A DNA stretch of 64,000 nucleotides, taken from contig JACZZP010000002.1 in assembly GCA_015183035.1 (NCBI GenBank), positions 2,542,001 to 2,606,000 on the forward strand, read 5' to 3'. The DNA is from Meloidogyne chitwoodi. Lineage: Eukaryota > Nematoda > Chromadorea > Rhabditida > Meloidogynidae. Positions 25,445 to 58,548 of the stretch are shown piece by piece. Both the position numbers and the translations under genes were made by a program. The notes beneath the pieces are model-generated. The model was not told the origin of the DNA, did no database searches, and saw only the letters and a program-made list of their open reading frames with translations. Numbering within the stretch: position 1 is the stretch's first letter; the number at the start of each line of letters is the position of its first letter.

Positions 25445-26869
25445 TTATTCATTTTTAATCATTCCTCCTCTATTTTTACTTTTATTTTCTTTTGAATTCT
25501 TCATTAAACATTTATCTACTAAAATTCCAATTTTTTTACAACTTGTATTTGTCAAGGAGACAATTTGTTCAAAAGTTGGAAACTAAAAATTCAAAAAGAA
25601 ATTAATTTATTTTTAATTTGGGGATATTAAAAACTTAATTTATGACACAAAAATGTTAATCAAATATTGACACTTTTAAACATGTCTTAAAAGAAGGCAA
25701 ATACTGGATAATTAGAACAAGCAACTCTTTACTTTTTTATTTCAAAAATAATTCCTTGAAAAATTTAAACTAAGGGTTACTTATTACAAAAAAGTTGACG
25801 CGAGTTATTCAAATTACCAAAAGTCGAAATGATAGCATATCTGTGATTTCCTTTTCGAACTTTTCTAAGTCATGTTTTGTAGCCATTGTCTTTTTGAGCT
25901 CAGTGAGATCTTAAATAGAATTAATTTAATAATCTTTAAAAAATTGTCACAAAGCAACAAAAATAAACTAATAATATTAATGACGATAAAACAATTCATT
26001 TTAACATTAAAGTTCAAAATTTCTTTCTATTATTTTAAAATTTTCATAGCAGATCAATTTTGCTAACATCATCTTTTAACCAAAACTTGATAGAAATTTA
26101 AAAATTAAAGACCTCGATGAAGCTGAACGAATCCGATAGTATTGGAGTTAGATCCTGTTTCCGCGCTAACTATTGCTGTAAAAAATTAAATGAAATTTTA
26201 AGAGGAAAAATTAAAAAAACCTTCTTTTGGCCAGCCTTGTAATGGTTTAACAAATCGCCCTTTCTCGAAGTCAAATCTTAAAAATATATTTAATAAATTA
26301 AAATTTTATTAGCCTTAAAACTATAATGATAACTCATTTTTGTAAAAAAAGGTGAACCAAATCTAACGTCAATTTTTATTTTCAAATCTTTTTCAATAAA
26401 ACAATTTAGAACATTTCTACCTTTAAATGCAAAAATGAAATTATTATATCACGAAAAACTGATAGGGAAAGTTTTGACAATTTTTATTCGATTATCAGAT
26501 ATGTAAATAATTCGAAACTAGTTTTGACTTAAGGAAAATTTTAACCCAAACCCTCGACAAAAAAGGTGCGTCAAAACCTAATAACACACAAGGATTCAGG
26601 TATCAAACCTTGCCTAAAAAATTTATTAAAAATACCTGATAACATTATAAGGCTCAGTCTCATTATTTCGGAAAAGAAGACTTGTGGCTTGAGGGAAATG
26701 CATAACCAAAGTTTGGTACGAAAGATATTCACCATCCAAAACCAGCTTAAGCTTTCGCTCACTACCTTTAGTACGAACAAGTAAATATTGCTAAATTAAA
26801 ATTTTTAGATTAAAAATTAATTAATAAAAAAACGTCAGTAAGATCTGCCATTTTAATTTTAGAAGGCAT
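25445..26869 (-). CDS. Stand-alone TDP-43-like N-terminal-domain protein, 179 aa
   Basis: Six exons with consistent phases: 26869-26834, 26790-26636, 26276-26221, 26175-26113, 25909-25818, 25582-25445. Residues about 13-90 match the pattern of the TDP-43 N-terminal domain. QYLLVRT corresponds to EYIRVTE. DGEYLSYQTLVMHFPQATSL, followed by LFRN, corresponds to the [20 protein letters not shown] region and the following YRN. A GRFVKPLQGW motif follows. In TDP-43 this ubiquitin-like domain drives head-to-tail oligomerisation. No RRM and no glycine-rich tail follow. Instead there is a short amphipathic, probably coiled-coil segment (TELKKTMATKHDLEKFEKEI) and a Lys/Asn-rich basic tail containing two Cys. 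There is no signal peptide, so the protein is probably cytoplasmic or nuclear. The family assignment is pattern recognition, not a database search. Two related copies lie at 31.4 and 56.2 kb. Confidence 0.75.
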
Positions 26870-28965: not shown

Positions 28966-30990
<2,025 letters not shown>

Positions 30991-31394: not shown

Positions 31395-33624
31395 CTTTGA
31401 CAAGGGCAAATTTCATAAACCTCAATTTGGATGGCCTTCTGGTGGAGGTTTTTTTTTATTTTCCTATTCATAAATTTATTTTTTATAGTAATTGTTATCA
31501 GAAAGGCTGAAGGGGAGCCATCACTTGGAATGCTTCAACTGCAAACTGGTATTTTTTAAATTTCAATTATCTTTCGGTACTTGTAGTTTAAGAGTCTTTT
31601 GCGGATATTCTGCAAAGAATTTTAACATGTAAATTGTCAAAAAGTTCTGGAAAAATCTTTCGATTTCCCCAAGTAGTAGCCAGGAATTTTCGCTATAAAA
31701 ATAAGGGTACTTTTTAATTATGCCCACAAAAGTCCGCAAATTATATTGAAAACTTTGAGAACACTGGCAAATAATTTTTAGCTATCTGGGAATTTATAAA
31801 AAGGGAAGATGTGAAAAGAAGAGAGTTGATCAAACCTGCGGACAAAACTTGCAGACTTTTGTGGACATAATTAAAAAATACCAAAATAAAACCTAGAAGG
31901 ACCAGTTTTCTAAAAATCCTTTTCTATTTTTTGATATGTAATTGAAAAAATATTTTGGACTTTCAAGGCACAAAAATTCATTTTTTCAACAAAATAAATA
32001 GATTCTTCCTTTTAGAATTAAGATTTTAATTAAGTGATATCAAAGATTAGAGATTATTAAACTATTAATTTTTAGACGTTGATGAAATCAAAACTTCAAT
32101 GAAAGATATGGTGACAACGGAAGTTTTCAATGAGAAGATGAAAGAAATGACGGAAGTTTTCAATGATAAGATGAAAGAATTAAAGGCAGATATTATTGCA
32201 TCATCGTCGTACAGGCTCAATGTAAGTTGGAATAATTTGCACTAATTTTTTAAAAACGTAGCACTTAAATATTTATATAGCTATCTTTCTCTAGAAAATG
32301 ATTTTTCATCCAAAACTAACTCAAATTTTTTTTAGTTTATTTGCATTCCTTACTAAAGCATTTTTTATCACATCTTTTTTGAATTTTTTAACCTAATTTT
32401 TACTAATCAACTTTCTAATGTAAAAAATAATTATTATTTTGTGCCCTTATTACGCACTAAATAAGCATAATCACAAATTTTTTGTTTCATAATTAAAAAA
32501 TTTTTGTAATCTTTCTCTTAAAATTTAATTTCCAAAAGTTCTGACATGTAAGCAAATGTAGAGAATTTGTCACCAAAATTTTTTTGGTAATATTAGAAAG
32601 AAATAGCATTTGATTCGCTCATCGAACTGATTCGAATTGGACTAAAATTATCTGAATTTATTCAATTTTATGACCAATCGAAAAAAAGCATTAATGTTAG
32701 CAGCCTCGGTAATCACTTAATCGAGCTTACTCCCCCCTATTGTTTTGAAAATTTTGAGGGATTTTATCTTTATTTATAATAGTTTAGCACTTTTAGAATG
32801 GTCTGATTCCAGACTCAATTCGACGAGACAAACCCCATTCCCTTTTAGCGCCGCAGGCGAAAAATTTTTAAAATAATTGTACTTAGCTGCCAAAAATTCA
32901 CCTTTTTAGCACCGCAAGCAAAAATATAGGACTTATATTTTTCTTATAAATTTAAAATGTTTCAAAACTAATGTAAGGAAAAATAAATCAGATAATAATT
33001 ACTGTCCAAGAATATTATGCAAATAACATAGAAAGCAACCCACATAAATATCACTATCATAAACTAACACACTAACCACTCAACCACACTCATACTTGGA
33101 AAGAAAACATTTTTAATTATAATGAATCTTTCCTTTTAATATTTTTCTCTTCCTTGAATCAAAGTAAAACACCCGCCCCTTGTAAGCCATTTTCTCAAAA
33201 AATACAATCTTTAGGGGTGTAAAAAATACTCGTAGTGAATCGAAATTATGAAAAGTTCGAAATCGAAATTCCTTCGAAATCGAAATTTTTTAATTTCGCG
33301 AAATCGAAATAATTCGAAATAAAAACCTCGAAATCTCGAAATTCTAAATCGAAATTTCGTCTCAGCCCTGTTCGAAAGTACAAGAGTCGATTTTAAAGTT
33401 TTGTACTTTCATTTAAAGTACGAATCCGAGTCCTGAAATAAATGAATTAATTTCTTTTTTTTTTTAATTTTTAGTTTCCTGAATTTAATCAAATTGTTTC
33501 TTTGACAAATACAAGTTGTAAAAAAATTGGAATTTTATTAAATAAATGTTCAATGAAGAATTCAAAAGAAAATAAAAGTAAAAATAAGGAAGAAAAAATA
33601 AAGGAGAAAATGATTAAAAATTAA
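31395..33624 (+). pseudogene. 5'-truncated TDP-43-NTD-like copy
   Basis: Four exons match the last four exons of the 56.2 kb paralogue in size and sequence: 31395-31447, 31489-31548, 32076-32221, 33475-33624. They encode FDKGKFHKPQFGWPSGG, VIVIRKAEGEPSLGMLQLQT, a Met/Lys/Glu-rich coiled-coil segment with a near-duplicated EVFNEKMKE/EVFNDKMKE, and a Lys-rich tail. The two exons for the front half of the N-terminal domain are absent; repeats take their place. The remaining exons keep open frames and splice sites, so truncation may be recent, or an unrecognised new 5' exon may exist. Long stretches of its last intron match 56.4-57.3 kb in inverse orientation. Confidence 0.65.
33230..33365. repeat. 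Low-complexity TCGAAAT-rich stretch in an intron
   Basis: Irregular repetition of TCGAAAT and TCGAAATCGAAATT, within the last intron of the truncated copy. The matching intron at 56.4-57.3 kb lacks it, so it was probably gained after the duplication. Confidence 0.6.
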
Positions 33625-56208: not shown

Positions 56209-58548
56209 CTAAATTTTTCTCATCTTATTTTTTTCATTTTTAATCATCCTCTCTTTTTTCTCTTCTTTATTTTTAGTATTTTTTTCTTTTGAATTCTTCA
56301 CTAAATCAGTTAATAATATTTCAATTTTTTTACAACCCTCATTAGGCAAATTAACGATTTGTTTAAATCCAAAACTTGACAACTAAATTAAAAAATTTAT
56401 TTTTTAATTTTTAAAAATTTTGGGGTATTAAAAACCTAAATTTATGGCACTAAAAAAATCAAACGTGATAATCTTAAACAGTGGTCCCAGATAAAAAATT
56501 TAAACTGCGTAAGTTTAACGTAAAAATACACTTTTGTGTAAAAAACGTATATAAGAAAAATTAAAATTTTCAGTGCCGCTAGCGAAAATTTTGGAAAAAT
56601 TTAATTCTTTAATAGTTGCCAAAAATTTAGAAAAATGAAGAAGATATACATATATTTTGGCAAACGCAAAAAATCTGTCACCATAAAAATTTTTGTCCAT
56701 TTGAAAGAAATAAAATTCAAAGTTGGGGGTTTGTCTCGTCGAGTTAAGTCTCGAATGTGACCCATCTTACAATTGCAAAACTACATATAATCCAAGATAC
56801 AATCCTTCGAAAATTTAAAAACAATAGGGGGGAGTAAGCTCAATCAAGTGATTACCGTGGCTGCTAACATTAAATGCTCTTTTTTTCGATTGGTCATAAA
56901 ATTGAACAAATTTAAATAATTTTAGTCTCATTGAATTAGATCAATGAGACGAATTTGATGGTATGTAAATGTTTTTATTTAAAAAATTTTACTGTGTGAC
57001 AGATTCTCTACGTTTTCATACTCGTCATAAATTTTGGAAAATAAATTTTAAAAAGAAAGATTACAAAAATTTTTAACTATAAAACAAATCACTTATATAA
57101 TTATTTTTTAAATTTGAAGTTAATTAGTAAAAAATTGATTAAAAAATTCAGAAAAGAATGTGATTAAAAAATGCGTTAGTAAAGAATGCACATAAACTAA
57201 AAAAAATTTTTTGAGTTAGTTTTTGATTAAAAATCATTTTCTAGAGAAAGATTGCTATTTAATTACTTATTAAAAAATTAGTGCAAATTATTCCAACTTA
57301 CATTGAGCCTGTACGAAGATGTTGCTATAATGTCTGCCTTTAATTCTTTCATCTTAACATCAAAAACTTCATTTGTGACATTTTGTTTCATTTTCTCGTT
57401 TATTTCTTCAATAAACGTTTTTATGTCACTAACATCTAAAAATTAATAGTTTACTTATCTCTAATCTTTAGTGTCACTCATCAAAATAAAAGCCTAATTA
57501 AAATCTTAATTTTAAAAAATTAAGAATCTATTTATTTTGCTGAAAAAATGAATTTTTGTGCCTTAAAAGTTCAAAATATTTTTTCAATTACATATCAAAA
57601 AATAGAAAAGGATTTTTAGAAAACTGGTCCTTCTAGGTTTTATTTTGGTATTTTTTAATTATATCCACAAAAGTCCGCAAGTTTTGTCCGCAAGTTTGAC
57701 AACTCTCTTCTTTTAACATCTTACCTTTATATAAATTCCTTGATAGCTGAAAATTATTTGCCGATGAATTCCAAAGTTTTCAATATAATTTGCGGACTTT
57801 TACGGGCATAATTAAAAAGTACTAAAAAGTACCTTTATTTTATAGCGAAAATTCCTGGCTATAATTAGGGAAATCAAAAGATTTTTCCAGAACTTTTTGA
57901 CAATTTACATGTTAAAATTCTTTGCAGAATATCCGCAAAGGACTCTTAAATTACAAGTACCGAAAGATATTGAATGTTAAAAAATACCAGTTTGCAGTTG
58001 AAGCATTCCAAGTGATGGCTCTTCTTCTGTCTTTCTGATAACAATTACTATACAAAATAAATAAACTTATGAATAGGAAAATAAAAAAAACCTCCATCAG
58101 CAGGCCACCCAGTTGGAGGTTTGTGAAACTTGCCCTTGTCAAAACTTAAAAAATATTTTTAAACAAAATTAAAATTTTATGAGTCATAAATTTATAATAA
58201 AAAATAAACTTTTGTATAAAATTTATGAATTGTTTTGGGAAAAATTTTAACCCAAGAGTAATTTTAATATTAAATCATTGTGTACCAAAATCTAACAACA
58301 TCAAGATGTACGTATTAAAAAATTATTAAAAATACCGAATCATTGTATTTATTCGACCCCTTCCTTTGAATACTAATTTTCCAATTTCAGGAAATGCCAT
58401 ATGAACAGTTGTATAACTAAGATGGCCGTCACTTTCTGAAAGCAGATTCATCTTTTCTTTTTCATCTTCACTCTTTACAAGTACATACTTAATTAAAATT
58501 TTTTATATTAAAAATTAATAAAAAAACCTCTGGCATTGTAGGTAACAT
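56209..58548 (-). CDS. Stand-alone TDP-43-like N-terminal-domain protein, paralogue, 197 aa
   Basis: Six exons with consistent phases: 58548-58528, 58487-58336, 58144-58092, 58047-57988, 57435-57302, 56382-56209. After a 7-residue first exon the domain reads YVLVKSED, then DGHLSYTTVHMAFPEIGKLV, FDKGKFHKPPTGW and VIVIRKTEEE. These correspond piece by piece to the TDP-43 N-terminal domain and to the 25.4 kb paralogue. A coiled-coil segment (SDIKTFIEEINEKMKQNV) and a Lys-rich tail follow. There is no RRM and no signal peptide. The intron positions are the same as in the 25.4 kb gene. Exons 3-6 and the long last intron are duplicated inversely at 31.4-33.6 kb. The function is unknown. In TDP-43 this fold self-associates, so polymer formation or interference with TDP-43 itself is a reasonable guess. 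Confidence 0.72.

Follow-up and report, generated by a model that had tools for sequence, protein, structure and literature searches.

TDP-43 assembly through its N-terminal domain (NTD) is central to the normal splicing role of the protein and is studied in ALS. The human NTD is reported to polymerise head to tail, with salt bridges between E17 and R52 and between E21 and R55 (PMC5491494, PMC5830921). For C. elegans, a review names TDP-1 as the sole protein homologous to TDP-43 (PMC12820612). The cysteine-cradle domain, found in aECM proteins, is described as being defined by four cysteines (PMC11925461). Literature searches, judged by titles and the opening lines of abstracts, turned up no described family of TDP-43 NTD proteins that lack RRMs.

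The window, that is, the whole 64,000-nucleotide stretch of the Meloidogyne chitwoodi genome analysed here, contains a gene of this kind, gene A, together with one further gene and one partial copy. New here is the origin of their tail exon, by which the window genes are very probably chimeric.

Gene A and its N-terminal domain

Gene A consists of six exons on the minus strand (26869-25445), which amount to 540 nt including the stop codon and encode 179 aa. An earlier note on this DNA had described a six-exon, 179-residue frame with intact phases, and this frame is real: all five introns are GT-AG and their phases are 0,2,1,1,0. The exons are:

26834..26869, minus strand: exon 1, start codon at 26869, donor GT
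26636..26790, minus strand: exon 2, first two thirds of the TDP-43 NTD
26221..26276, minus strand: exon 3, with F..P..GW; phase as in TDP-1 exon 3
26113..26175, minus strand: exon 4, closing the domain; followed by intron 4, beyond which no intron is in common with TDP-1
25818..25909, minus strand: exon 5, charged stretch
25445..25582, minus strand: exon 6, basic tail, a copy of a cysteine-cradle gene's final exon

The motifs listed in the earlier note (YLLVRT, DGEYLSY, FPQATSL, LFRN and GRF..P..GW) are present in the protein. Gene A matches Pfam PF18694 (TDP-43_N) over residues 33-84 with 27.1 bits (E 3.8e-6), which is exactly the curated cut-off of 27.1 bits, so that the match is borderline when gene A is taken alone. 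Core residues G24, F35, P36, L41, P64, G67 and W68 are retained; G37 is replaced by Q and G40 by S. The closing beta-strand proposed for the domain is weak in gene A: the PF18694 match reaches only position 70 of the 74 in the profile.

A phmmer search of the PDB with gene A alone returned four matches (E 0.25-0.66), all to the part encoded by exons 4-6 and none to TDP-43, and no DIX family was listed for gene A in Pfam up to E 1. AlphaFold2 models of exon-2 peptides only, which are part of the domain, were of low confidence (pLDDT 61.5 and 55.2).

The short coiled coil that had been placed after the domain was not recovered. Hydrophobic residues at heptad a/d positions, counted against 2000 shuffles, numbered 5 in gene A versus a shuffle mean of 4.9 (p 0.69); for the paralogues B, D and E described below, p was 0.38, 0.09 and 0.03. 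The basic tail stands, with 9 K+R and 4 D+E among 45 residues, and is a copied exon, not an arbitrary tail. A hydropathy scan gave no membrane-like hydrophobic peak in A, B, D or E, and no signal peptide was seen by eye in gene A.

Paralogues in the window and on the same contig

Genes B, D and E were found in a genome search with the gene A protein. Gene B lies in the window on the minus strand (58548-56209), with six exons and phases as in gene A:

58528..58548, minus strand: exon 1
58336..58487, minus strand: exon 2, TDP-43 NTD
58092..58144, minus strand: exon 3
57988..58047, minus strand: exon 4
57302..57435, minus strand: exon 5
56209..56382, minus strand: exon 6

Genes D (C12:2458894-2460629) and E (C12:2400481-2402428) are on the same contig as gene A and also have six exons with phases 0,2,1,1,0. 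PF18694 scores were 34.9 bits for B (over profile positions 1-72 of 74), 41.9 bits for D and 26.0 bits, just under the cut-off, for E. All four genes matched the profile at E <= 0.01, three of them at or over the cut-off.

When a profile built from A, B, D and E was searched against the PDB, the top 8 of 11 matches were TDP-43, the best with E 4e-6, and hhalign of the same profile with TDP-1 and three other NTDs of the genome gave a probability of 98. The earlier note had assigned the first ~80 residues of gene A to the TDP-43 NTD. Because paralogues of the same structure match, this identity is settled: the domain in the window genes is almost certainly the TDP-43 NTD in what can be read from the sequence, in a divergent form in gene A.

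Copy C (31395-33624, plus strand) comprises equivalents of exons 3-6 only; no counterpart of exon 1 or exon 2 turned up.

31395..31447, plus strand: exon-3 equivalent
31489..31548, plus strand: exon-4 equivalent
32076..32221, plus strand: exon-5 equivalent, B-like
33475..33624, plus strand: exon-6 equivalent, A-like; the copy is a mosaic

Exons 3-5 of copy C resemble those of B (82% over 1536 nt, introns included), and its exon 6 is closer to A (90%) than to B (80%). A histone deacetylase gene (window positions 28966-30990, plus strand; outer ends set by eye) directly precedes copy C; one piece of it matches PF00850 with 46.9 bits and another with 18.1, below the cut-off of 27.9.

Relation to the TDP-1 gene

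RRMs accompany the NTD in two TDP genes of the genome: TDP-1, on contig C1, and its paralogue at 1418 kb of C23. PF18694 matches them with 80.7 and 77.3 bits, respectively. RRM_1 matches two stretches of TDP-1; in the paralogue one stretch passes, and the second RRM region was matched by the RRM part of TDP-1 in tblastn.

The first four exons of TDP-1 measure 39/167/56/54 nt, with phases 0,2,1,1, and those of gene A 36/155/56/63 nt. Introns 1-4 are common in place and phase to TDP-1, A, B, D and E; the C23 paralogue is without the third of them (its exon 3 is 104 nt long). At the DNA level, gene E and TDP-1 are 76% identical over a stretch of 92 nt that spans exon 3 and the greater part of intron 3 (E 1e-10), while unrelated AT-rich matches in this comparison reach only about 1e-4. 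Since the introns are shared and the DNA of gene E is like that of TDP-1, the break that detached the window family from a TDP-1-type gene was probably at intron 4 or close to it.

No RRM match was found in the 64-kb window. Across the window and 17 fetched loci, tblastn with the RRM parts of both TDP genes gave matches at the two TDP loci and nowhere else, and none of the 90 places listed for PF00076 fell in C12:2.39-2.61 Mb or C23:424-641 kb. The tblastn result is the stronger test, because the PF00076 search can miss RRMs split between exons, as it did with the intron-split RRM of the second TDP gene. The claim that the gene A protein carries no RRM is borne out by both searches.

Origin of the last exon

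The parent of exon 6 is a gene at C12:2778.7 kb (L032), on the same contig and about 180-380 kb from the five copies; it came up in the genome search with gene A as well. Its last exon encodes a cysteine-cradle aECM domain (PF23626, 55.7 bits), one of two PF23626 places found in the genome. Over the aligned nucleotides, exon 6 is identical to the parent exon at 86% in A (105 nt), 80% in B (150 nt), 84% in C (122 nt), 83% in D (189 nt) and 81% in E (189 nt). The shuffle control was run on A and D: the DNA alignments scored 127 and 164, and 200 shuffles of each reached at most 61 and 72. The tail of gene A shares 19 of 26 residues with the parent peptide (BLASTP E 8e-12). The opening stretch of exon 6 in B, D and E is in another frame than in the parent, and the exon-6 peptides of D and E are identical.

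Because exon 6 is a copy of a cysteine-cradle gene exon, A, B, D, E and fragment C are very probably chimeras, composed of a TDP-1 front and the copied last exon of a cuticle gene. The exon-6 peptides of A, B, D and C do not match PF23626 up to E 10, and gene A keeps two of the four cysteines that define the domain; for these reasons the cradle itself is probably not kept in the window genes. For exon 5 no convincing match was obtained at the TDP-1 or the cysteine-cradle locus (best E 0.37).

Upstream of the parent cradle exon, on the same strand, is a long Ser/Thr-rich open frame. If the two belong to one gene, this would fit DPY-6 as it is described (PMC11925461).

RRM-less N-terminal domains in the genome

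A genome search with PF18694 gave 26 places: 17 at C23:426-640 kb (L022-L027), the two RRM-bearing TDP genes, one each on C29, C30 and C10, two on C8 and the two arms of a repeat on C1. All four C12 genes were missed by that search. Together, the 26 places and the four C12 genes support, within this genome, the suggestion that the domain was detached from RRMs and expanded.

Thirteen of the 17 C23 places form three groups with a spacing of ~1 kb. The domain core is free of stops in 17 of 17 units in our spliced-alignment script; only the core was used, the parts modelled before the domain (in units 545, 547, 548, 564 and 565 at least) being artefacts of the script. All units except 639, which ends there, extend past the GW motif (16/17). 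Four (545, 546, 547 and 567) are modelled to stop within about 20 residues after the domain and are by these models NTD-only proteins; near the other 13 no TDP-type RRM was found.

On C10 (L031 3254-4151) and C30 (L030 3140-5177) the NTD (45.2 and 40.7 bits) is followed by two hydrophobic segments, with Kyte-Doolittle 19-residue means of 2.25 to 3.08, and there is also a charged stretch. These proteins are a possible membrane-anchored form. On C29 (L021 1480-3313) an NTD of 64.6 bits precedes a long region that is coiled-coil-like by appearance; one intron of this gene is modelled with a GC donor.

The place on C1 (2898.3-2899.4 kb; L020 3836-4874) is an inverted repeat of 492 nt, whose arms are 99% complementary and separated by 55 nt. 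It carries TDP-1-like NTD exons and is either a palindromic duplicate or an assembly artefact. On C8 an NTD-like fragment occurs twice (L028 about 2231-2529, L029 about 2428-2709), beside other coding stretches that are nearly identical; the pair reads as a segmental duplication.

A tree built from 27 NTDs placed A, B, D and E in one group (85/77, a modest support, with long branches); a separate branch (85/66) carried C10, C30, the C23 paralogue and the C23 units. The branches of C10, C30, C29, A and E are long, and their position is unsure. At least two detachments of the NTD are likely, because the split in the tree and the intron pattern agree.

A collection of 5.8 billion proteins was searched with the single gene A sequence, which gave 23 candidates, and with a 15-member alignment of seven of the 17 C23 units, TDP1, TDP2, C10, C29, A, B, D and E, which gave 364. 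Neither search gave a relative, a result that says nothing on other nematodes.

The polymerisation interface

In gene A the interface positions of human TDP-43 are changed: E14 is replaced by R, E17 by K and R52 by N, E21 is deleted, and R55 is kept. These assignments come from an alignment of ~20% identity, in which residues near gapped loops may be misplaced. The net charge is +2 in the tail segment and 0 in the head of gene A, versus -5 and +3 in the human domain. At the E17/R52 positions A has K/N, B N/T, D E/Y and E K/C. D and C29 keep E17 alone, and most C23 units are without E21 and R55.

The earlier note had proposed that proteins of this type could form filaments or poison TDP-43 assembly. 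By way of the known interface this is not supported for gene A, which has lost E14, E17, E21 and R52; the proposed action is less likely for gene A than for the C23 units. The general form of this idea, in which TDP-43-like filaments are built from the detached NTD, or the NTD acts as a dominant negative by capping TDP-1 polymers, appears unlikely to us. It is plausible for the C23 units: the NTD is reported to polymerise through the E17/R52 residues (PMC5491494, PMC5830921), the pair is kept in 14 of 17 of these units as well as in TDP-1 and the C23 paralogue, and one unit matches PF18694 with 86.1 bits over positions 1-74 of 74, above the 80.7 of TDP-1. Against it, the pair is retained in none of the four C12 genes and in none of the three on C10, C30 and C29, and for most of the C23 units the tail surface is neutral or basic (net -3 to +3 versus -5 in human).

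Selection and probable gene conversion

Substitution rates were estimated with a Nei-Gojobori script and are rough in such an AT-rich genome. The dN/dS of A and B was 0.56 (Fisher p 0.004), a ratio that is rough since dS is about 1.1, and that of exons 3-5 of B and C was 0.31 (p 0.0007); both values point to purifying selection. For exon 6, A-B and B-C each gave p 0.04. No significant constraint was detected for exon 6 of A-C (p 0.06) or exons 1-5 of D-E (p 0.07). Among the C23 units the median dN/dS from the same rough script was 0.71 over 136 pairs, with several values above 1.

D and E (loci L033 and L034) are 58-64% identical in exons 2-4 and 58-71% in exons 2-5, versus 99% in exon 6, where they differ at three positions, all synonymous and none a replacement. 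This pattern indicates gene conversion, by which exon 6 was probably shared between the two genes.

The genes could also be decaying pseudogenes, TDP-1 5' exons with new 3' exons left as relics of duplication and gene conversion. The mosaic copy C, for which exons 1 and 2 were not found, points this way, as do the other fragments in the genome (the two C8 places and the palindromic C1 copy), the high protein divergence (A and B are 38% identical in aa) and the two comparisons above without significant constraint. We nevertheless consider decay improbable: four genes have six open exons, GT-AG introns and identical phases, synonymous changes exceed replacements in A-B and in exons 3-5 of B-C, and exon 6 of D and E has synonymous changes only.

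That the resemblance to TDP-43 arose by chance or convergence, the domain being another ubiquitin-like fold, we regard as very remote, since gene A alone on the cut-off, its PDB search and the low-confidence AlphaFold2 peptides are countered by the family profile with TDP-43 as its first eight PDB matches, the hhalign probability, the introns in common with TDP-1 and the TDP-1-like exon-intron stretch of gene E.

Proposed function and comparison with known systems

The explanation that we favour, and hold to be reasonably probable as a whole, is that the C12 genes are a chimeric family which uses the NTD as a docking module, separate from TDP-1 chains. The gene A protein would be intracellular and unable to bind RNA in the way TDP-43 does, and its NTD would act in protein docking, with a putative function and partner. 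Because the residues of the head-to-tail salt bridges are lost or reversed in charge, the protein most likely stays out of TDP-1 chains; it may instead use a re-tuned surface to pair either with other copies of itself or with its paralogues. This mechanism, in which gene A remains outside TDP-1 chains and its changed surface binds itself or its kin, is tentative, and on the residues compared here we would give it slightly less than an even chance.

A wider reading is possible, if rather doubtful: in this nematode lineage the TDP-43 polymerisation domain would be a free-standing, re-shuffled module in three sets. In the first, the clustered RRM-less NTDs with the salt-bridge pair would be natural caps or co-polymers of the RRM-bearing TDP paralogue. 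The second would be the chimeras of the window, with their cuticle-matrix exon and re-tuned interface, assembling apart from TDP-1. In the third the NTD would be anchored in membranes.

An NTD split from RNA binding many times in one genome offers natural variants of the interface, with contacts kept, lost or reversed, and makes it possible to test in an animal whether TDP-43 polymers are regulated by isolated NTDs. The window family would also be a clear case of new genes formed from the 5' exons of one gene and the last exon of an unrelated one.

Three described systems can be set beside gene A. With TDP-43 (TARDBP) and C. elegans TDP-1 it has in common the NTD pattern and core residues, and with the TDP-1 of its own genome introns 1-4. 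It differs from them in that TDP-43 and TDP-1 have RRM1 and RRM2, of which none was found for gene A, and in that the polymerisation pair E17/R52 is K/N. The DIX-domain proteins Dishevelled and Axin offer an analogy, a small polymerising domain of like fold class joined to other modules (as reported in PMC5491494); unlike them, gene A has no listed DIX family. To the aECM cysteine-cradle proteins (SPIA-1, DPY-6; PF23626) the window genes are linked by exon 6, 80-86% identical in DNA to the last exon of a member on the same contig, but the copied exon fails PF23626 and gene A has two cysteines in place of four.
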